This document shows positions 14,801 to 53,880 of a DNA stretch of 64,000 nucleotides, piece by piece. The notes beneath the pieces are model-generated. The model did not search any database. It saw only the letters and a program-made list of their open reading frames with translations, and was not told where the DNA came from. The DNA comes from Owenia fusiformis (taxonomy: Eukaryota; Annelida; Polychaeta; Sabellida; Oweniidae). How positions within the stretch are numbered: position 1 is the stretch's first letter; each line of letters starts with the position of its first letter. Made by a program: the position numbers and the translations under genes. The stretch spans positions 22,738,822-22,802,821 of the forward strand of contig CAIIXF020000008.1 in NCBI GenBank assembly GCA_903813345.2. Direction: 5' to 3'.

Positions 14801-17800
14801 TCAGACCTAAGTGATATTGAAGGGGCAATGGACCAATCAACATACTTTTTCAAAAATGTTGACCTTATTTTCACCAAAAATGCAACCTATAATTATATTG
14901 TTGAATGCATAATTAGAATGTGCTTTGAGACATGTTCAATTTCCTAAAAGGAAAATTTGATTGCTCCAGGGACTTTAAAGATATTCAATTTGGATGACCA
15001 AAATGAACTGAAACCAATGGATAGCATGAGATTTTTCAATGGAGAAATAACATGGGGAACACTTATCTTAAAGCAATTAAGTTTTTCTTTCAAGAACTAT
15101 TTGATACATCAAAATGAAGAATAGTAATGCATTAAACATAGTAAAAAATGATTGCATTTTTGGTGAAAATGGGGTCAACATCTTCAAAATGGGGTCAAAA
15201 AGTGTGTTGATGGGTTAATTGCTAGTTAAATATCTCCGAGTTTGTTTGACTTTATTATTATTGTGCATAATTTTCTTTGAGATAATGAATTGATCGAAAA
15301 GATAAACTTGTCTTCATTGTCAGAAAATAGTCATAATCCAAGATATAACCTTCTGAAATTGTTTGCGATAACCCACGTGCTCCTTTAATGAACAATAATT
15401 TGCGTGTGTTACACTGTGTATCAAGGTGATGACAGGTTGGAAGCTTGATGAAGCAAGATGATATTTCTGGTTGGGACTTTGGTTATCAGTATAGATTTAT
15501 TTACAAATATTTGCATGGACTAAAATTAATTTCTTGAATAGACCTACATGTATATCATTGATTTCAGATAAGATTATTTTTGTTTGTTACAGGATTTGTT
15601 GAAGTGTGTCTGATGAACCCATTAGATGTTGTGAAGACAAGGTTTCAAATACAACGTGGGCCAGATGATCCAAATCGTTACAAGGGTCTGGTGGACTGTT
15701 TCACACGCATGTACAAGACTGAAGGGTGAGTAAACATGTTTATCCCATTCTTTGATGTGTTTGAGGTATTTAAAGCAGATTTGTAGAGAATTGTATTTTC
15801 ACCAGAAGACAGGATATAGCTTTAAATCGAGGGCTGAGCGGGCAGATATTTTATAAGAGCCAGCGACAGGTACGTCATAATAGTCGTTTGCATGTTGTGT
15901 ATTTTTGTACCATTTGTAGGCATCACGATCGACCTTCATAGATATTTGATTAAATATACTCCTCATTGTCAGGAATCAAAGATTATAATTTTAAGTTAAA
16001 AAAACAAAGTCAGTATTAATATATCAGAATAATCCAAATATCCTGAACCTCATATAGGATAATCTATATATACTTTAGGCTAATATGTAATTATTATATT
16101 CTTTTGTACTCTCAACTTTTTTGAAAATCTGATTTCAAGGTAGGGAAGATTTTCAATAAAGCCCCATGCTATAAAATCATTGAAATGTAAAATATGCACC
16201 TTTTGGTGCTATATTGTGATCAGTTTGCCATACTAAAATCTTGTCTGTAAAGTCTTGTCCATGCGTTTCCAAGGCAAATGTTTGATAGATTCATTTCAGA
16301 TTTTCAGGGATGTTTCTTTGTATGAGAATTTTTAGAGGTGTTTCTTTGTATAGAAATCAAGACCTAATTAATTTTGGGGCATCTTGGGTATTTCCATTGT
16401 AAAACCTTGCCTCAGAAGTCAAACTCACATTTCTAGGTGAATTGTTTGACGGATTGATTCCAAATTCCCAAAATTACAAATCAAGGACTGATTTGTTTTT
16501 AGACATTCTGGGTTCATATTAAGGCAGTCAATTTTGGATTCTCCATTCTAAAATCTTGTCTGTTAAGTCTTGTCTTGTCTTGTTCAATGGATTCATTTCA
16601 AATTTTCAGGGACATTTCTTCGTAGTTTCTGTGTATTCTGGATAAATATTAAGGTGGCCATTTTAGATTTTTCCCTTCCAGGTGAACTGTTTAACTTGTG
16701 GCATTTATATTTGCTACTTTGATTTTGATGCATTCCAGAGCATTGTCATTCTACAAGGGTATCTTGCCACCAATCCTAGCAGAGACTCCCAAAAGAGCTA
16801 CAAAGTTCTTCTGCTTTGAACAATACAAATCCCTCTTTGCATTTGCACCAGTTCCTGTGGTGAGTACATAATATACATTGTATAAAAAACTGTAAATTCG
16901 AAAACCTCTGTAATTGGAACATCTCTAGATTGGAATACAGTATTTAACTTTAACAGGTTTCATTGTACCAATGAGTGATATGTCTTTAATTCAAATAAGA
17001 TTGTCAATGAAACTACAAATTTAAAATCTTGGAGAGTTGTTTTCTTGTTTTGCCTCTTCCCATCTTTCTGGCTAGCCCTTTCCTTATAGTTATTCCCAGG
17101 GTTAGCCCCCCCCCTTCATATCATTCACAAGATTAGCCCCCCCTCCCTTCATATCATTCACAAGATTAGCCCCTCCTCCCTTCATATCATTCACAAGATT
17201 AGCCCCTCCTTCATTTCATACTCCTAATACAATTGACATTGCAGATGCTGTCCATGGCAGGGTTGTTCTCTGGATTGACAGAGGCTATAGTCATTAATCC
17301 ATTTGAAGTTGTCAAAGTCAAACTTCAGGCTGAAAGGTCAACATTTGCTGAAGTGAGTAGAACTATTAAGAAGCATTATAAGTGAATCTAATAACCTTAC
17401 AGTAGATAAGCCACAAAGAATTTAATGAGTTTTTGGAAATGGTCTGACCATGATGTACAATCAGGATATTATATCAGGATTTTAGCATTCTATAATAAAA
17501 GCTGCTGATTGTGCTCATTCAGTTGCTTCAAATGATGAACTTTTTGTAAATGCTTTTCAGCAAAAGTCAGCATTTGCCACAGCCAGGCAGATTGTGACTG
17601 TCCATGGATATGGTGCTCATGGTTTATCTAAAGGTCTTACCTCAACATTAGGAAGACATGGCATCTGGAACATGTTTTACTTTGGGTTCTATCACAATGT
17701 CAAGGAACTTATTCCAGTACCAGAGGTGGGTGTTAATTCTGTTCTGCTGTGATGATCTCCCAAGCATTGAAACAACTGAGTGCCACAGACATATGAGAAT

Positions 17801-18955
17801 TGGGACACTGCCTTGTATGACGTGTTAGACTTCATTTGTATCCAGATATTTGAAAATTTGGAAAAGTGTTTAGATTTGACCAGTTTTTGGAGATTTCATA
17901 ATTAGCATCAGTATTTTGCACTGTACTGTATACAAAAAGAAGTTTGATATTCCCATTTTCTGCTTTATTTAAGTTTGAATAAAATTCAATTTTGTTTATG
18001 TTGAACAACTTATTATGAAAATCTTATATTGGTAAAACAAGATAAATATGTATTTTTTTAAATTTTTCTTTCTAGGATCCAAAGTATGATCTAGCAAGGA
18101 GATTTCTTATTGGTCTAGCTGCTGGGTCCCTTGCTTCAGTCATGAACATTCCATTTGATGTTGCCAAGAGTCGTATACAGGGCCCCCAACCCGTACCAGG
18201 GCAAATCAAATATAGATACTGCTTCAAGACTATTGCTATGATATACAGAGAAGAGGGGTAAGAAATAAATCTACTGGCGATCATCTCTGATTCTATTTTG
18301 CCATACTAAGGATTTGGTTTATTTTGAATTCTTGCAACTTGGAAATTAGATTATTAAAAATTTACTATACATGTATTTTGTATTATTAATAATTTTTGAT
18401 AATTTTTGTTTAATTCAGATTACAATTTCTGCATGATTTAGGTTACAATGCCCTTTAATGATGTTTATTTGTGATGTTTATTTACAGATTCCTTGCTCTA
18501 TATAAAGGGCTGCTGCCAAAGTTATTGAGATTGGGACCAGGTAACAAAAATCATGCATTGTTGATCTAAAAGATGCAGTCTCCCCCTTAATTTTTCAAAT
18601 GACAACCATCTTTCACTCACCGAATGAGTTTCCTAGTAATATTTTGAGGAAATAATGACCATGATTTTGTTTGTTGGACATAGCCAAATGCGGAAATAGA
18701 ATATCTGAGGTGAAAATGTTCAGAACAAAACAACATTATTGTGAGACCGCATTGTTCTGGATTTTTAAGAAATACAAATTCTCAGGGAATATTAATATTT
18801 CTATTGACCACATAGCTTTATGGCATTCCAAAATGTGATTCTAATGAATTAAGTCATGCTAGAAAGACTCATTATGATCTTTATTTTCAGGTGGTGCTAT
18901 TATGCTCATAGTCTACGAAAATGTTTTTGAATTTATGAAGAAAAACTTTGGCTGA
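11897..18955 (+). CDS. SLC25A21: SLC25A21, mitochondrial 2-oxodicarboxylate carrier, 8 coding exons
   Basis: Coding exons are 11897-11963, 15593-15725, 16739-16859, 17245-17352, 17561-17725, 18076-18257, 18488-18540 and 18891-18955. Every junction has GT/AG and keeps frame, giving 297 residues; the human carrier has 299. The protein shows the threefold mitochondrial-carrier pattern, with P-x-[DE]-x-x-[KR] signatures PLDVVK (32-37), PFEVVK (126-131) and PFDVAK (224-229). Family-specific stretches are GILPPILAETPKRA, GLTEAIVINPFEVVKVKLQA and SRIQGPQPVPGQIKYRYCF. Members carry 2-oxoadipate and 2-oxoglutarate across the inner mitochondrial membrane, serving lysine and tryptophan breakdown. The ATG was chosen as the first in-frame one before the conserved ASGGCAGF motif. 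Intron 1 (3.6 kb) holds several foldback elements; introns 2 and 3 hold tandem repeats. No disabling change was seen. Confidence 0.96.
12395..12540 (-). repeat. dispersed repeat with TGGGCCAG inverted core, copy 1
   Basis: TTTGGCCCAGTTTATCTACTC, CAATGCAAAAAAGGGTGGAT and TTACTCCGGAAAAACACAC correspond, inverted, to copies at about 13805-13920 and 58190-58310. Its function is unknown. Confidence 0.65.
13012..13769. mobile_element. 758-bp mariner-type foldback MITE (CAGGGTGTTC ends)
   Basis: CAGGGTGTTCAAAAAAACGC at the left and its inverted form at the right are flanked by TA (13010-13011 and 13770-13771). The whole element is nearly one long inverted repeat; internal blocks such as CACTATGGTTAGAAAG also recur inverted. 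TA duplication and CAGGGTG ends are typical of Tc1/mariner MITEs. It sits in SLC25A21 intron 1. No transposase remains. Confidence 0.8.
13805..13921 (+). repeat. dispersed TGGGCCAG repeat, copy 2
   Basis: It shares TTTTTTGCATTGGAC, TCTACGA.GT.GGGAGTAG, ATAACTGGGCCAGAC and GGTTTGGTTA with copies near 12395 (inverted) and 58190 (same strand). It lies directly between two foldback elements. Confidence 0.7.
13922..14491. mobile_element. 570-bp foldback element (GGTCCTTAAATCTAGC arms)
   Basis: The left arm runs to about 14180 and the right arm is its reverse complement, beginning near 14260. Matching landmarks are AAGGAGTAGGATT, ACCAAGGAACATC, GGAGCATGAAAATG and GACATGAAATATTTA. The ends read GGAGGTACATG and GGAGGTGCATG. 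There is no coding content and no clear target duplication. Confidence 0.75.
14655..15392. mobile_element. ~0.74-kb foldback element (AAAGGAGCATG ends)
   Basis: AAAGGAGCATGTAGG and TTATCGCAAACAATTTCA at the left recur inverted at the right (AAATTGTTTGCGATAACC, GTGCTCCTTT). Inner blocks around GTTGACC are also inverted, so most of it can fold back. TTAA is adjacent on both sides, but with slightly different offsets. A piece related to 14985-15090 recurs at 36174-36290. Confidence 0.7.
16190..16685. repeat. tandem array of ~165-bp units in SLC25A21 intron 2
   Basis: Repeats carry AAAATCTTGTCTGTAAAGTC, ATTTCAAATTTTCAGGGA and CATTCTGGGT.AATATTAAGG, ending in CATTTTGGATTTTCC-like blocks. This is the reverse complement of the 8.0-8.9 kb unit and matches the 43.2-43.6 kb array. 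Confidence 0.75.
17103..17212. repeat. minisatellite, ~33-37-bp unit, in SLC25A21 intron 3
   Basis: CTTCATATCATTCACAAGATT followed by AGCCCC and a variable run of C/T occurs three times, plus partial copies. The length of the C run varies between copies. Confidence 0.85.
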
Positions 18956-24910: not shown

Positions 24911-27900
24911 TTATAGTTCAAGATTTGTGTAGTATTCATATGCCCTTTGATAGCAGTGCTGCGCTGAATACAGTGGTTTGTACTTAAGCTGTCTCCTTGC
25001 CTTGTCCCCGTTGTAGTAGCACGTTGTACACGCCATCACCAACTCATTCTTGGAAGAAGGCATGCGTATCTTTAATACCGGTGAAATCAGTATAGTGAAC
25101 CACTCAATGATGGACCAGAAGAAATACAAGAACAATAGTGGAATTTCTATGTTTAACAGCTTCACCTTGTGGGCTTCGAGAAAGGGCTTGGCCCACAGGA
25201 AGTTGTTACAGACCGGGCTGTCGTCCGTGATAATATAGGACGTCCCACTGATATTCTCCTCCTTTCGTATTGTGTTTAGCGTACAGACGTGAGCCCAAGC
25301 TACGTTACCAACATACACGCGCTGCATTTTGACTTCTGCTGATCCAAGAATGGGTAATATCCCTACGGATTTGCCTATCTTCATTATGACGGTGATGTAT
25401 TTAGAATCGCCTTCACCGTAAATACCACAGGGGCGCAATGATATTGTCTTCATAGTTTTGCCATTATGAAGTATTGTACCATTAGCAGCTAGGGCTTCAC
25501 GTTCAGCTTTGGATTTCGTTCTTGCGTAGCCATTTAAAATGAGGTCGTCTCTGGTCTGACTCTGGTCGACGTCATCTTCATCTGCTCCTAAGATTGGATC
25601 CCAACTTCTACCCAGTTCTGACGTTCCAGTGTAGATTAGATATTCCACACCTTGTTCAATGCAAGATTCTAAAACATTTGATGTTCCTGAAAATAGAGTT
25701 ATGAGCTACAGATAAATGGACCACTCCAACAGTGAGTTAAATGTGATTGTTCAGAATTTGACTTAGTGTTGGCGCCAAAGACAACAAGGAAGTTAAGTTA
25801 GCAGTGTTTTTGAGAACAAGAACGCGACAAATTACGATCATCGACTTTCTCAATTTCCTAGGTGGCCTTTACTCCAACTCTAATAAGGATGAAGGGTGGG
25901 GTGACAATACGGGTCTTGTCAAATCTCTTTTGTGCATTTTTGCAACTTGCTCAATCTATCTTCAACATTCGGCACTGTATGGATCTAAACATAAACAGAA
26001 GACCCCTTTTGGTTACAAAAACTTCGAAGGTACGAATTTTCTTTTTTCCTTATTTCGCGAGTTGTAATCTCCAAGACATAATACATCTACACGTTTTCGA
26101 ACAAATAGTTCAGAAGACGAAAGCATCATAGATATAATACCTTACTATTATTACATGTATTACCTAAACGGATTAAAGTGTAGATCTCAACCGTTTCTGA
26201 AGTCCGTTTACGTGACCAAAGTGACGTACGTTTATCGATGATTCTATCGTCTTATGAACTATTTGCTTGCAAACGTTTAGATATTCTTAAATATATGATA
26301 CTGAAACATCGTTTGTGATAAAAATGTTGAAATTATGCCTACAACTTCTGAAATAAGGAAAAAAGAAAAATCCTAACTTCGACGTTCCGACATTTTGTAA
26401 CTACTTTGAAAAATGCAGTACCAGTGCAAGTCTAGTGCCAAGTCTCCCCCTCCCCGATGGTAAAGGAGGTTATTAGTTAGAGGTCATGGCTAATTTTTGT
26501 TAGAACAGGGTAAGCCAACATATGTTTACGAAGTTGATACTGTATCTGACGAAATCGATAACGCGATTACTTCGTGATCCGCTATGATTGTTTACATTGG
26601 AAATTTGAAACAATGGCCATAGTATTACACAACGCTTCAAGAGGTTCTTGATATTCTCATCTAAAATCATTGGAAATTTGGCATGAATTCCAACACATTT
26701 TTTCATTTCTTACACCTTGGCCGAATATATTATTTGATGTCAAGCATATAATAAAGCAATATTAAATTCAGAAAAAAGCTAAATGTCTGGATAATTTTGT
26801 AATTGTTACTCATGTCAAATCTGTACTCCCCAATAAAACTAATTTGGAACGGTCTCTAAGTTTGAGTGTTGGACATTTAAGTTAGTTAAATGTCATGTAG
26901 TTTAATATTTTATACCAAAAGAAGCAAAATCAAACTTTATATTACAATAGTTACCGTTTGTCTGCTAAAACACAAATCGTTGCGGTGAAACGATTTTTTA
27001 TGATTATGGTGAAATGTTTATGCAAATATTTCCATAACTTTAGAAAAACAATATTTCACGTATGCCTACCTTTGACATTAATGGAATCCATAACTTCATG
27101 GTCGGGTAAATTCCCCGTGTCAATGATAGATGCGCAATGGATCACTGCGTTTACGCCTGTAAACGCCTCTTGGATTTTCCCTTTGTTCCGTATGTCGCCC
27201 TGGAAGTATTTCAACTCTATCCCTGCCATTTTTCCATCGAAACCTGAAAATTGTTGACAATTACTGAATCTGCACGTACGTCTGGAAAATTACATAGTTG
27301 TACTTTCAGTTGTTATTCCCGAATTATCTATAGATCTGCTTAGAATTAATATGCGGTAATTGTTCAAGAGGAGTTCATTTACCAGCATGATTGATTGGAA
27401 TAATCAACCGCTAGATGAGAAAAAGTTATAATAAAAAGAATTAAGCTAGGTGAAAATGACTTGTTCATAATGCTTCAAATCATGACAGATGCATGTGCAC
27501 TTGTAGCACTGCATTGTCACCATCGTTCACGCAATTGTCAACGTCGGTAAATGTCTAACTTGATCGTAACCTGTTGCAAATTAGTAAAATGAATGGATGT
27601 CTTAGTCTTATGCAAGACACAAATAAGTAATGTGCACGTGGTGCCATATATGATGATATTCTGATACTCATCACATCATTCTGTTTCACTATAATCAATG
27701 CTATTGCGTGTCATAATCAATGCTGTTACGTTACATAAATAATAACGATGTTATATTTTATTCTCACCTAAATTTAAGTCATCTGGTTTTTGTTGGATGT
27801 CGAGGACTCGTATTTCGGCTACGTTTTCGCCTCTCTCTGCCACCAGTTTGACGAGGTGCTTCCCAAGAAATCCGCATCCTCCAGTTACGAGAACAACATC

Positions 27901-45903: not shown

Positions 45904-46170
45904 CACTCCCCTCCATAAGTTTGGCAACCTTAGCTCCACCATTGAACTACTTGTTAAAGCCTCTTTACGTTTGAATTTTTATTTACTTAACCGGTGATGA
46001 AATAACTTATAATATTAATGGAAACGTAGCTTGACTTAATTTACAATACCTCCAAATTTTCTCAATTTTTTTCCTCAATTACAATAGGTCGAAAATTGAT
46101 GATAAATTTGATGATTTTTTGAAAGTCGTCATTCACATGTAATCCAAAGGGAAGTGGAGGGTTCGGGGCA
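45904..46170 (-). repeat. ~270-bp dispersed repeat, copy 2
   Basis: Inverted relative to copy 1. It forms the inner part of the left arm of the hAT-like insertion. Similarity to copy 4 continues to about 46290, through GTACACTAAGTGTTTAG, which is the empty site of R2. Confidence 0.85.
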
Positions 46171-46828
46171 AATCAGAAATCAGGATATCTTTACAGTAAA
46201 AGATTCAGCAAAAAATATTTTTATATAGAAAATTGAATTGTCAAACTTTTTTGTACACTAAGTGTTTAGTTTATTTGATGAATACTAAAGTTATAGCGCT
46301 TCAAAGTCATTTTTGAAAATAATTTTTCGCCCCCTGTGTTATTTCAATGGGAGAGTTTTTTTGAAAAACAATTTTGACTTAAAGCCCTATAACTTTGTTG
46401 AACCTGAAGGAACATATGGGTCATTCTCCAATACTGACGTAAAATGACCCCCTGTACTTAAAATCCCATTTATGTAATTACATGAAGCTGTATGATATAT
46501 TTCTTGTTTCCAACATGTTGCACATATATTAAATATATAAATAAAATAAAATAAATATCATTGTAAATGTTTTTACTTGTTGTTGATTTCTTATAGTCCA
46601 TTTGTCCAACATTTTTTTTCATTAAAAAACTGACATTTTGTGAAGTGATTTTTTGCAAGTCCATGAAATTTATAACCTGTGTCAGAGAACGTCCCAAAAT
46701 GGATTATAAACAAATATACACATGTATCTGTAATAAAAATCGTGCTAAATGAGTGAAATCGTTGGTTATTGGCATCATTATAAAAAATAATTGACCAGCA
46801 CTTTTCCAAATGTGTGGTGTCCTTCCAT

Positions 46829-46842
46829 ATCACGACCAGACG
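46829..46842 (+). promoter_or_regulatory. subterminal motif ATCACGACCAGACG
   Basis: Related 14-mers occur at 47005-47018 (ATCACGACCGTGAC), 53145-53158 (inverted, ATCACGACCGGACG) and 53314-53327 (ATCACGACCGGACG). Location near both ends of the transposon suggests transposase-binding sites; this is inference. Confidence 0.45.
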
Positions 46843-47141
46843 AATTGTGCAAATATACTGCTAAAATGCGATTTTGCCCCCTATGTTGCACGATCGTTTG
46901 CCGAACGTCAATTTCCATTAGGCAGTTCTGAAATTTCTAGTATTCGTACTGCATACTTCGTCCTAGCCATGAAATTAGATTGCAAAAAAAATTCGTGTCC
47001 ACATATCACGACCGTGACTGACGAAAACTATTTTAAGCTTAAAATGCTTTCGTGCTCAATTTCAGTGTACACATACCTCGTTTTAAATGTATAATCTTCA
47101 CGTGATATGGAATTACGTAATCATTTATTGTTGAAGACAAT

Positions 47142-50100
47142 ATGGCGGCAAATAAAGGCGGGCTGTCCTCGTCGTGTCCCGGTAAGTAAGATCACGAACG
47201 ATAAATCACGAAAGTGACGCACTTTCTAAATCATTCCACAATATGCTCCTAATGTTTTGGAACACTATAACACCAGTGTAAACAATTACAATGACCATAA
47301 TACCGTAAAAATAAGATGATGTTTTTCCAATTTTGGTTCTATATTTTTATTTATCATAATTTAGCGTTCGTTCGTGATTTTTTGGACACGAAAACGTTAG
47401 TTTCGTGATTTTTTGGACACAAACACGTTAGTTTCGTGATGCTGTAGGACACAATCAGTTTAAGTTTATTTGGGTGTTCCATGGTTTGCAAAATAACCGA
47501 GGCTTATATTTTTTCTCTCTTATGCCATGTTTTCAGTAAGACTAACGTGTTTTTCGAGTCCCGTTTGAAGATGTTTTACATGTATTCAGCTATTGGTTAA
47601 TTCCAAATTTCAAGGGAAATAACGCCAAAACGTTAATTTTCAAGTGAAAATTGGCCAGAGTTCTATTAAAAATACACTTGTGTTTGCAGAAATGTTACAG
47701 AAAAAGAAATCACATTTAGCCCTAACAAGCGCCCAGCGTAACAAAAATTATCGTGAAAGAATGAAGTCGTCAGTATTATATGCAGAAGAATTCCGAAATA
47801 TTAATGTTACAAAGTGCAAGCTATGGAGGATGAAAGTAAAAGAAGACAAAGAAAAGTTGGACTATCAAAGACAACTGAGTCGTGAGAGATCAAGAAAGTA
47901 CAGGTAGGATCACCAAAACTTATTTAATATTTAATTTTACATGTTTTAGATAGCAACGTTTTTATTGAATTATGTGACATGGTAATACATAGATAATTTA
48001 TCAATTACGGCAGTTCGAACGCACAGGATGCTATTTAGAGGAATTTCTGATCTGATTACGTAAAATTTTGTTTCAGAGAACGGAAAAAGGCGTCAATGGC
48101 AACGGATTCGTCAATCTCAACGTCGACATCTAAGACAAGAATGAAACCAAAACTTAAAGTGAAACTCAGAAGTGAAGCAGGAGAAAGGAGGAAGAGATGG
48201 AGATTGTCTAAAAGAAAATATAGAGAAAACATGTCCTCACAGAAGAAGAGACGTGTAAATGAAAAAAGAAGGACTAAATATGTTAAGAATAAGGTAGGCA
48301 ATGACAATTAAGCTTTTTACAATTTCTGCAAAAAATTGATTTAATTTTTCTTGTCATTCTTGTCAACTTGTCATTCTTGTCATTCAAAAAACATTTACTT
48401 TCATCGCAATTTCATTATATCTCTAGGAATATTCAAATCAAATACGAAGCTTGAGTGAGGAGTCACCCCAAATAGCACCCAGTGATAGTGAGCAGGAGCA
48501 TTCTGGCAGTTCCGTACAGACGCCATATAGTACCAGACAAGCATACCACAAAGCAATGTCACGAGTTAAGTCAGCTCTTCCACACGACCCAAAGAAGTAT
48601 GCCGTACTTGTAGAAAACCTGGCCTGTAAAGCTACCCCAAGGAAGAAGCGAGAATTACATGAGAGGGGTATTTTTCTAACTGCAGCTAAAGAAAAAGAGC
48701 TGGAGAGAGTCAACAGGATAAAACAGTATATTGAAAATACAAAACAGATGAGAACAAAACAAATCCTGCAGAGAAGAAAAACACTGAAAGCAATAATGAA
48801 ACCGACAACTAAGAATGAGTCCGAGAGCAGCTGGAGCTTCATGTTTAAGAGTTCAGCCATAGAGGATGAAGAGAGGAAGAAAAGATCAGACGCACTTGAT
48901 TCAGAAAAAGTAGTTGAGGTAGAAAATTTCTTCTCTAAAGAAGAAAACGCAAGGACACTTTCAGATGCTAAACAAGCTAGTGTGAAAGGAGAACGACCGA
49001 GAAAAATTCTAGAAAAAAGCCTTTCATCGCTGTACAAAGATTACAGCACATCTAGTGGACATCATATAAGTTACAGTAAATTTTGCAAACTGCGCCCAAA
49101 TAATGTAAAAACTATGAGTAAAAACATTTTTAATCAATGCCTATGTGAGTATTGCACCAACATTGAGCTGAAGATTTCAATTATCAACAAAATTGCTGAC
49201 AGAGATAGAACTTCAAAAATCCAAGACAAATATTCTGCAAGCCGAATCACACTTTGCAAAAAGGTTAGTTTTTTAATGATTACAATAAGCGAATGTGAGC
49301 ATATTGTTCATTGAAGAGACATATTCCTTATAGTTTCGCTATTTGATTTGCATTTTAGAAGACGTGGTCCAGGGGACGTGGTTTTTAAAAAGGGTTTATG
49401 AAAAAGACCGAGCCCACCGACCACCGACCGGTCGGTGTTTTCCACAGGTAGCCTCAAAACAGGGTTTGAAGAAAATGTGTAAAAGACCGACCATTTGTGA
49501 AAAAGACCGACCATTCGTGTAGCCTTAATTTATTTTCGATTTTGAATACACGTCAATCGTATTTAACGTTTTTTGTCAATTTTAAAATGGTTGATTAATC
49601 TACACGATGTAATGTTACGTGTGTTCTTTTGCCATGATCAAAAGTGACTCATCATTTACGCACATCATTGAGAGCTATTTTTCATATTGAATGGAGTTTT
49701 TATTGACGTTTAATAACTGAGAAATCAAACATTACGTGTTATTCTTTAAAATAAAAAAAGATAACGACGCGATCGTAAATCGTAAGATCGTAAATGTTAT
49801 TGGCGTGCATATTTTTGATATTTTCATACTGTACCTAATGTAATGCAACATGCGTTTTATGATCCAAAGTGACCAACCATATAGCAAAAGCTAGGCTATT
49901 GAATTGTCGTTTTTTATAGTTTTGAATGTCTTACCAGATTGAAATTGGTCGTTCAACAACTGAAAATTAAAACATTATGTTACGTTTTTTAGAGGACTAC
50001 GCGATTAAATGACAGACCTACAATCTGACAATATAAATGCTCTTTTTATCGTGACTTAAAATGGTGTGCAGTGCCGAACCAATGTCCTATTAAATCTATT

Positions 50101-52130
50101 ATTGTAATAAGTAGTGTTGTTATCCCAGATTGAAATTTGGTCTTCAAACAGCTCAGAAATAATACGTTTTGCTTAAAAATATGATCAGACCGCGACGTGG
50201 TTACGTTTTTCACGTGCGTTTTCGATCGTGATTTAAAATGGTTAAACACATTTTAATCACGACCTGGTAAATCATTGGATTCCTTGTTTTTAGTTTTATT
50301 GCTTCCTCGAATTTTGCATCTATTCTTTATGCAAAAGACTGACAGCCTACCACCGACCAAGCAGACCCAACTGTGGAGATTGAATGGTCGGTGGTCGGCG
50401 GTCGGTCTTTTTCGTAAACCCTTTTAAAAATACGATCGAAAATTATGCTTTAAATCACTAGCCCAACAAATAAGACATGTAATAAATTGCTTGACCAAGT
50501 TTTTTGAGACATAAGCTTTAATGTGTGATTAACGTATTAAGGACATTAATTTTCTAGGCTGACGGATCAGACTTTTATTCCAAACAGTGCCTTGAGAGAG
50601 CGTGTAACAACTGTGGGGTATGGCACCTAAAAAACCACATCGCACCGCTGGAGGCTCATTCAAATAATCACGTCAAATGGCAGAGATGGCAATCCCAAGT
50701 TTTTCATCACAAGGGAAAGAAATGCTCCAGAAAGATGTTGGTTACCAAACAGGGTGACTGGGAGACTTTCCAAAAGGAATTTCTGAATGAGATGGAAACA
50801 TTTTCTTTGCACTTACATACTGCCAAATGGCAATATAGACAATTTGACTTCATAACTAAAAATGTACCGGTCAAAAAATGTGTCATGTGCCTCGATTTTG
50901 CGGAAAACTACACCTGCTCATATCAAGATGAAGCACAGGGTGCCCACTGGTCACAAGATCAGGTCACCCTTTTCCCCTCAATCAATTTCTACAGGTGTCC
51001 TATATGCCAAGAGATAATAAAACACAGCATCGTTGTATTGTGCGACGATAAAAAACACGATAGTCTAGCAGTGAACACATTTCTTGAAAAAATTCGCGGC
51101 GAAATCGGAAAAGTAACAAATGAAATTGAAGGGGATATTCTATTTAGTGATGGCTGTGCCTCGCAATTCAAGTCCAAACACCCGTTTTTAACGGCAGCAA
51201 AATCTCATTTAGCTGGCCGTCCTATTGACAAACACTTTTTTGGGTCTAGGCATGGCAAGGGGCCATGCGACGGGGAGGGGGGTGTTGTCAAACGTATGGT
51301 AACATCGGCAGTAAAATCTCGGCGAGCAATAATTTGTAACTCTGAGGATATGTTTGAATATTGCCAAAAGAATCTGTCAAAAACAGCTGATAACGACGGA
51401 GCATGTTGCCACAACAGGAGATCATTTATACATATTAAAGATGCTCACGCGATTGTTCACCCCATTGTTGAGATAAAACCAATACCAAACACTCGAAAAT
51501 TACATAACGTGGGTAATTGTGGAGATTCTAGCCTCGTTTCAGTGCGAAATTTATCTTGCTTTTGTAACGTTTGCCTGGGTATTGACTTGGGTCAGTGCAT
51601 GCAGAAAAAATGGGTTGAAGACAAAAAGATTGTTGAAATTCGCCAAAAAACTAATAGATCCAATTCTGTCTCGGGTGTAAGACCAAGAGCTGGGCGTGTT
51701 ATTGCAAGAAGAGTGGCAACAAGAGGTGGTCATGTTGGTTCTAGACGGGGAGATGCAACAAGAGGTGGACGGAGCGGGAGAAGAACAGTTGTTACAAGAG
51801 GCGGTACAGGGGCGAGAAATGTGAACACTGTTAGACGATCACTCTTTGACACCTTCTCCATGTTGGGAATTGATGTGTCGGCGACAACATCTACAGGTAA
51901 AATTCATTGGATTCTTCATTCCTACTTGGCAAAAAGTTCATCGAAACCATTGAATAGGTTACAAGATTTTCTTATCGTCAACGCTTTCATTAGTCTCAGT
52001 TTGCAATTCTTGCAGAAATTACGGTGGATTTCAGAATTAAATTTGAATTGTAGAACGAGGGGGGTTCATATCAGAATTTTGATTTAGACCTAACAGTCGT
52101 TCAATGACTTTATTTCTTTTAGAGGATTAA
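47142..52130 (+). CDS. transposase-like protein, D-D-D/E type, 6 coding exons, ~884 residues
   Basis: Exons are 47142-47181, 47690-47903, 48077-48293, 48427-49263, 50558-51896 and 52123-52130 (ending E-D-stop); all have GT/AG sites and fitting phases. The N-terminal ~140 residues are very basic, with repeated R-x-x-x-Y-R-E-R/N motifs (RNKNYRERMK, RKYRERKK, RKYREN), probably DNA binding. Residues ~140-436 are helical and charged. Exon 5 has Cys/His clusters (CLERACNNCGVWH) and acidic motifs LDFAENY (Asp549), SDGCASQFKSK (Asp634) and HGKGPCDGEGG (Asp674/Glu676), which I read as an RNase-H-like catalytic triad. An RG-rich tail (about 810-860) follows. Similar unnamed proteins are, from memory, common in aquatic animals, but I know no assigned function. 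Alternative ends exist: reading through the last donor to 52087, or splicing to 52619. No frame break was seen, so it may be active. Confidence 0.75.
47366..47455. repeat. direct repeat in intron 1 (TTTCGTGATTTTTTGGACAC)
   Basis: Three adjacent copies of a ~32-bp unit: two share CGTGATTTTTTGGACAC followed by an AACACGTTAG-type end, and the third is shorter (CGTGATGCTGTAGGACAC). They echo the ATCACGA motifs in the subterminal regions. Confidence 0.75.
49392..50421. mobile_element. 1.03-kb MITE in intron 4 (GGGTTTAYGAAAAAGACCG ends)
   Basis: The left end GGGTTTATGAAAAAGACCG and the right end in reverse complement GGGTTTACGAAAAAGACCG differ at one base; both go on into CACCGACCACCGACC. Flanks carry TTTTAAAAA on both sides, so the duplication is up to 9 bp, or TTAA with AAAGGG ends. 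Inside, a ~200-bp unit (CCAGATTGAAATTGGTC, CAACAACTGAAAAT) repeats about three times. It lies wholly in the intron and does not break the gene. A diverged relative is at 23240-23430. Confidence 0.85.
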
Positions 52131-52141
52131 AGTACGAGACG
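52123..52141 (+). other. 19-bp exon carrying the probable stop
   Basis: TTTCTTTTAG acceptor, 19 bases, then a GTAAGT donor. Joined to exon 5 it gives E-D-stop. The small size and strong sites suggest a real, possibly optional, exon followed by a 3' UTR exon at 52619. Confidence 0.45.
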
Positions 52142-52618
52142 GTAAGTAAAAAGTGAATACAGGAGGCAATTTACGTAAAATCATGACCTTTGAAATAGAA
52201 GAATCCTCGTTATTTTCTCGTTTATTTCTTTGTTATTTATGTTAGATTACAACACAATATTCTTTATCAAGTTATAATTTTCGTTCGTCAAAACTATTTC
52301 AAAATTGATTACAATCCGGTAATATTGTTATTCTAACAAATAAATTTTAGTTCATTTGTAACAGCTACACATTTTTATTTACATAACTAATTCTTGAAAT
52401 AGTTAAGGGAATAATAATCAACCATTGTCTAGGAAACGTAGTCGACACATTTCAGTTTAAAGCAAAAAGAATAACTTAGCGTTGCTTTAAAGTTGACTGA
52501 ATAACATCTCTGAACATTAAAGTTTTTTCGGTATTGTGTCTTAGAAATTCACTTTTAGAGGATTCGCTGTTATACGAGTTACTGTACACGCTGAGTTAAC
52601 TTCTGTTTTTATTTTCAG

Positions 52619-52785
52619 GATGTATGAATGGAATTCATACCAGTGAATCTTACAATGGACATTCGATAGATTATTTGTGGTTGACGTTGATAAATTATAC
52701 TGTTATATGTTTTCATGTTAAACAGGACATTTCACTTTTTCTGTGGACGTTCAAGTTGTTATGCAATAAATTTTAAAAACGAAAA
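52619..52785 (+). other. probable last exon / 3' UTR with poly(A) signal
   Basis: A TATTTTCAG acceptor at 52618 starts it, and AATAAA lies at 52765-52770. If spliced directly to 51896, it would extend the protein by about 50 hydrophobic residues ending LLCNKF; after the 19-bp exon it is untranslated. Confidence 0.5.
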
Positions 52786-53621
52786 TCAATGATTTTATTT
52801 TTACATTTAATTGGGCTTTGCATATGACAGAACATTAATACAAAACAGCAAAATTGTATTTATTACAAACACTGACATAACAAACTTTACGCAACGTACA
52901 AACCTCATCCAAAAAGTTCATATTGGAGCTCCAATTTGGTTTCGTAATCTTCTCTGTCCTCTCCTGTCCTTGCTCACGACCGAGACGGCTTTTTCATTAT
53001 TTCAATATATGATTCTTAAGGCTGTCACTTCATTCTTGTTTCATAAAATTTATTTCCCATATCACATGTACATGCAATTACAGAGGAATGGACATTGGAA
53101 TATCAATCAGAATAAAATAAGAGAAAAATACAGAAGTGTATTAACGTCCGGTCGTGATGCCATAAATTAAGGGCTGATGTTCAAATAAACATTCAATGCA
53201 GTCTGATACAAAGTTTTTCAATTGAACAAGATATCCGTTGACTATTTATTTTTGATTTTTGATTTGGGATAATTCTGGTAATAAATCATTATTACAAGTA
53301 TACTTGACAGACTATCACGACCGGACGATTTCCACCTGCTGTAGGAAACAATGCTGATCTGCAAAAATAGTTTAACGAACTATCTTGTACAATATATATT
53401 CTGAAACTTTAAAGTGTAAAGTATCAGAAAAGCTAAAAATTGATCAGTTAAACAACATTTGAAAAATTGACCCCTGGTTGACATTTTCGGGAGCAGTACT
53501 GGAGAATGAGCCATATCAGTTTTTTGTTAAATAAAGTTAGCAAATTCAATTGCCTGCCTAACTCGTATTTGTTGCAATGACTCGGATAGATGGATATTCT
53601 GTCATATGACTTGCAGCAAAC

Positions 53622-53880
53622 CTACCATTTCCCATTGGTGAACATGGGAATGTCGATTTTCAGAAATTCATCAAATTTATCATCAATTTTCGACTTATTG
53701 TAACTGAAAAGAAATTGAAAATATTTGGAGGTATTGGAAATAAAGTCAAATTACGTTTTCATTAATAGTATAAGTATTTTCATCACAGGTTATATAAATA
53801 AAAATTCAAAGGTAAAGGGGCTTTAACACGTATAGTTCAATGGGGGAGCTAATGTTGCCAAATTTATGGAGGGGAATGTA
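53622..53880 (+). repeat. ~270-bp dispersed repeat, copy 3
   Basis: Same strand as copy 1 and inverted to copy 2. It forms the right inner arm of the hAT-like insertion: ATTTCCCATTGG, GGAGGTATTGGAAATAAAG, GTTGCCAAATTTATGGAGG. Confidence 0.85.

Follow-up and report, generated by a model that had tools for sequence, protein, structure and literature searches.

The window analysed here, a 64,000-nucleotide stretch of the Owenia fusiformis genome (C8:22738822-22802821), contains a 7097-bp DNA element, which we call family A. Its homology ends are exact, and it is a real, mobile element that has recently moved as DNA. We consider it very probably an autonomous or recently autonomous cut-and-paste transposon with its own presumed DDD transposase. 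Because the element is complete, has moved recently, keeps its gene open and has exact ends and empty sites, a biochemical test of this presumed transposase type, which Pfam lacks, should be straightforward.

Host genes lie elsewhere in the window. A mitochondrial-carrier exon recognised by Pfam (15598-15726) sits within 15598-18258 (+), where two more carrier-like frames (17266-17367 and 18079-18258) were located. A 3-beta-HSD frame occupies 24914-25705 (-; Pfam E 6e-39). Both host genes, like the introns in the gene of the element, indicate eukaryotic DNA. An Rfam scan of the window gave no match at the gathering score.

Element boundaries and target site

Family A spans 46417-53513 (+), and a copy on C1 aligns with it throughout and stops at both ends. 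Comparing the two arms and searching the genome by pattern located the left inverted end, TGGGTCATTCTCCAATACTG (46417-46436, +), and the right inverted end, TGGCTCATTCTCCAGTACTG (53494-53513, -). The arms are identical at 18/20 positions and each adjoins TA, in agreement with the original prediction, which had placed imperfect 20-bp arms beside TA and the ends of the element at 46417 and 53513. Gene and ends had also been predicted to belong together, and that they form one mobile unit is supported.

The only two perfect 13-bp matches in the window are the two ends of the element, but when two mismatches are allowed there are four end matches vs 1.84 expected, so a search of the window by itself is not decisive. 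In the whole 498-Mb assembly, a 22-bp end pattern has four perfect matches (both ends of two copies). Allowing three mismatches adds four matches, no more than the reversed pattern gives as a control (3+1). Of the outermost sequence of family A, 484 bp on one side and 514 bp on the other, the genome contains two occurrences each, in the same two copies.

The element is inserted in a high-copy repeat, one part of which forms the left flank (46115-46416) and the other the right flank (53514-53815), as recognised from matches to other repeat copies. This repeat is at least 600 bp long and also matches itself inverted. For the empty-site search, the window flanks were joined with one TA removed, giving a 602-bp query. 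From 2401 first-look candidates, 40 places were scored, and these match at 92-94% over practically the full query. Ten of the 40 were fetched, and in all ten the alignment runs unbroken across the junction, ACATATCA. The window copy was therefore inserted into a repeat of high copy number, with duplication of 2 bp, as predicted from its flanks. Flank comparison and the empty sites (10/10) place the two copies of the duplicated TA at 46415-46416 and 53514-53515; at this site, reading the duplication as TA or as AT is equivalent.

The TA could instead have been part of the element. For the window copy, this is rejected by the empty sites (with the same equivalence of TA and AT), and for the lineage it is rejected by AA/AA and AC/AC pairs in family B.

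A second copy and recent movement

A genome search for further copies with these ends returned the C1 copy. The two copies lie on different chromosomes in unrelated flanks. They are 99.3% identical over the whole element and can be aligned as far as the inverted repeats but not beyond. Over 7.1 kb they differ by 18 substitutions and five small indels; six of the substitutions are coding, four of these change an amino acid, and all frames and splice sites remain intact. At approximately 0.25% substitutions between two open copies, movement was recent, and the suggestion of recent activity is to that extent supported.

Both copies retain their introns, so family A moved as DNA. Retroposition is rejected on this ground and because the ends are inverted repeats. 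It counts against a transposon that family A has two copies only and that the flanks around the C1 copy, once joined, match nowhere in the genome without a break.

Gene and predicted protein

The gene consists of six GT-AG coding exons on the forward strand, with splice sites predicted from sequence only. Exon 1 (47142-47181) holds the inferred start codon and exon 2 (47690-47903) encodes a basic N-terminal region. These are followed by exon 3 (48077-48293), exon 4 (48427-49263) and exon 5 (50558-51896), the presumed catalytic region, which is also supported by alignment. Exon 6 (52619-52776), which carries the stop codon, is the exon of which we are least sure; together with the start codon, it is the least certain part of the gene model. 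Joined, the exons give a single frame with 934 codons before its stop, and this six-exon frame is kept open in both family A copies.

The open gene of six coding exons without a frame break thus stands as originally predicted, while its size does not: approximately 884 codons had been proposed rather than 934. Richness in introns is likewise not supported as a trait of the lineage, since two relatives, L004 (778 residues) and L010 (786 residues), are single open frames.

Intron 4 holds a nested inverted-repeat element of approximately 1.05 kb (49383-50430), whose 29-nt arms are 93% complementary. Its end pattern occurs in both family A copies and has 53 matches in the genome vs none for the reversed control.

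Conserved acids and fold

A tblastn search of the genome with exon 5 gave 27 matches, which include both family A copies and in some cases are pieces of one locus. We aligned exon 5 in eight rows: the window and loci L002, L003, L004, L005, L010, L011 and L012. Near-duplicates (L001 and L006-L008), partial loci (L009, L013, L014 and L015) and the remaining matches were left out. The eight rows stand for seven families, because L002 and L003 belong to one family.

The three motifs named in the original prediction (LDFAENY, SDGCASQFK and HGKGPCDGEGG) are present, and they hold the only acidic residues that are invariant in all eight rows. These are D113, D198 and D238 of exon 5, i.e., residues 549, 634 and 674 of the protein, encoded at 50894-50896 (in LDFAENY), 51149-51151 (in SDGCASQFK) and 51269-51271 (in HGKGPCDG), all on the forward strand. 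The first and second are separated by 84 residues and the second and third by 39, hence DD39D. Other invariant residues include H167 and the HGK at 232-234, but none is a glutamate (E125 is present in 7/8 rows), and a CxCxxC follows D238 in 7/7 rows reaching that far.

By crude residue propensities (means of the aligned rows), the first two acids would lie close to the ends of strands and the third just ahead of a helix, which may hint at compatibility with an RNase-H fold. Single-sequence AlphaFold predictions of exon 5 alone and of a 227-residue core had pLDDT values of 32.7 and 39.3. Searches of the PDB by sequence and by profile found nothing significant (best E 1.2). The original prediction had been unable to place the protein in Tc1/mariner, hAT, PIF, piggyBac or P. 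No Pfam family reached its cutoff, whether with the window protein or with eight additional frames from seven relatives. The low pLDDT values and the lack of a significant Pfam or PDB match count against the reading as a transposon.

Related families in the genome

Relatives of the protein lie between inverted ends in three more families of the genome, B, C and D. The ends start with TGG in families A and B, ACAC in C and CGG in D.

Family B comprises the protein loci L002 and L003 and the partial loci L013, L014 and L015. Its end, TGGGTCTTTTTCAAAAGTTCGT, occurs 44 times vs twice in the reversed control, and by position and orientation these ends form 18 pairs, with eight left unpaired. Identical 2-bp flanks were found in 18/18 pairs (16 TA, one AA and one AC). 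TA in the search pattern could have biased this result, but this was rejected: a pattern without TA found 44 ends and one with TA found 43, and the extra one is unpaired. The protein lies between paired ends at four of the five loci; at the fifth, L003, one end was found.

Family C consists of four copies of 4.9-5.0 kb (L005-L008), with L005 98.7-99.4% like the other three. Its end pattern has eight matches, which make up four pairs, and none in the control. All four pairs carry 2-bp duplications (TC, AT, GA and AA) vs 0/12 when flanks were swapped, and the protein lies between paired ends in 4/4.

Family D (L004) has a single 778-residue frame and 30-bp ends. These ends have 19 matches vs none in the control, giving one unpaired end and nine pairs, which are spread over C1, C2, C5, C7, C8, C9 and C12. 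The flanks are identical over 3 bp in 7/9 pairs vs 2/72 when swapped, and in the two remaining pairs, one of which is L004's own copy, they differ in one base. Protein matches lie inside 2/9 pairs.

In a tree of eight rows with one very long branch (L011), families A, B and D group apart from C and L010-L012 (98/97), and D groups with B (82/88), so the 3-bp duplication occurs within a group whose other families duplicate 2 bp. Having 2-bp and 3-bp duplications in one lineage would allow target-cut spacing to be compared among relatives.

At L010, L011 and L012, the search for end pairs gave either none or arms lacking a matching target duplication, which also counts against the reading as a transposon; of 12 further matches to the L012 arm pattern, none could be paired. 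L010 (4160-6517, -) is a single frame of the lineage with a Cys/His-rich tail, PHD-like by eye, which gave no PHD-like Pfam match at E up to 1. L009 (C8:7704732-7705204) is a decayed relative with stops that shares 68% identity with a part of exon 5. A search for the family A end pattern found none in its vicinity, which again counts against the reading as a transposon. In viral and prokaryotic contigs, patterns for relatives matched 1, 22 and 44 stretches, none of which was confirmed.

Mechanism and alternative explanations

As in DDE/D cut-and-paste transposons in general, these families have inverted ends and short target duplications of a length fixed per family, and three acidic residues of the protein are invariant. 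The comparisons show directly that the element moved as DNA and kept its introns, that its ends are exact, that 2 bp are duplicated relative to the empty sites, that two open copies diverge little and that the same type of protein lies between inverted ends in three more families. Beyond this, we infer that the protein is a transposase with DDD chemistry and an RNase-H fold, and that movement is by cut-and-paste rather than copy-out. In the simplest account, the protein of 934 residues would attach to the short inverted ends, and its three aspartates, presumably on an RNase-H-like core, would excise the element. The excised element would then join a target whose strands are cut 2 bp apart, in most cases at TA, and repair of the staggered target would leave the TA duplication.

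The lineage more likely than not belongs to a superfamily already named in Repbase, e.g., a divergent Sola or EnSpm group. Uncharacterised proteins of animals often carry motifs like DFSENY, SDGxxSQF and HGKGxxDG, which makes a Repbase name quite possible. Target duplications of 2-5 bp, reported for CMCT elements (PMC12730594), would also agree with the 2- and 3-bp duplications of these families. However, neither the CMCT signature nor CA..TG ends were found (see below), and there is no Pfam family match. The lineage's motif strings did not occur and were not described in the literature searched, a weak negative because such motifs mostly stand in figures. A new superfamily is possible but somewhat doubtful: it would comprise eukaryotic DNA transposons not described so far, with a DD39D transposase whose N-terminal region is basic and whose third acid is preceded by an invariant HGK and followed by a CxCxxC, and with 2- or 3-bp duplications depending on the family. 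What we have is a lineage of presumed transposases outside the coverage of Pfam.

It is quite unlikely that an unrelated transposase encoded elsewhere moves the ends and that the gene is a passenger. The activity and fold of the protein are predictions only, which leaves room for such an arrangement, but the same type of protein lies between the inverted ends of four families (A-D) whose ends differ, and its three acids are invariant. That the two copies are a segmental duplication of a host gene with ends arising by chance has a negligible probability and is rejected: there are only two copies, as it would have it, but homology does not reach beyond either inverted end, the copies sit on two chromosomes in unrelated flanks, and the empty sites contradict it. 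The most likely reading is a cut-and-paste transposon that encodes its own presumed transposase.

Comparison with known transposons

Tc1/mariner elements resemble family A in its 2-bp TA duplication, and the 39 residues between the second and third acids fall within their usual spacing of 34-41. Their transposases are, however, much smaller than the 934-residue protein of family A, and the lineage has no Pfam transposase match. Its target sites also differ: TA accounts for 16/18 pairs in family B, which also uses AA and AC, while family C uses TC, AT, GA and AA and family D duplicates 3 bp. Sola elements presumably have motifs of the types DNCxGQNKN and GHTKxxPD, which resemble those described here, but their target duplication is 4 bp rather than 2 or 3 bp. 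Kolobok and piggyBac duplicate TTAA, again unlike the 2 or 3 bp of this lineage.

Kolobok, hAT, P, MuDR and Dada are, like these families, TIR elements with DDD/E transposases. They are unlike them in the C/DxxH signature given for this group (PMC9587614): at the invariant H232 it is present in 0/8 rows, where the residue three positions earlier is G (3/8), E (4/8) or A (1/8).

The CMCT group (EnSpm/CACTA, Mirage, Chapaev, Transib, Plavaka, ESTA and Lanisha) shares short target duplications with the lineage. Its signature combines C(2)C with H(3-4)H, both located between the second and last acids (PMC12730594). No such pattern is conserved between D198 and D238, where H232 is the only conserved one of these residues, and the rows have no conserved H pair after the CxCxxC; this comparison takes D238 as the last acid and might change if the last acid lay further downstream. 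The ends differ as well, starting with TGG, CGG or ACAC in this lineage and being mostly CA..TG in CMCT elements.
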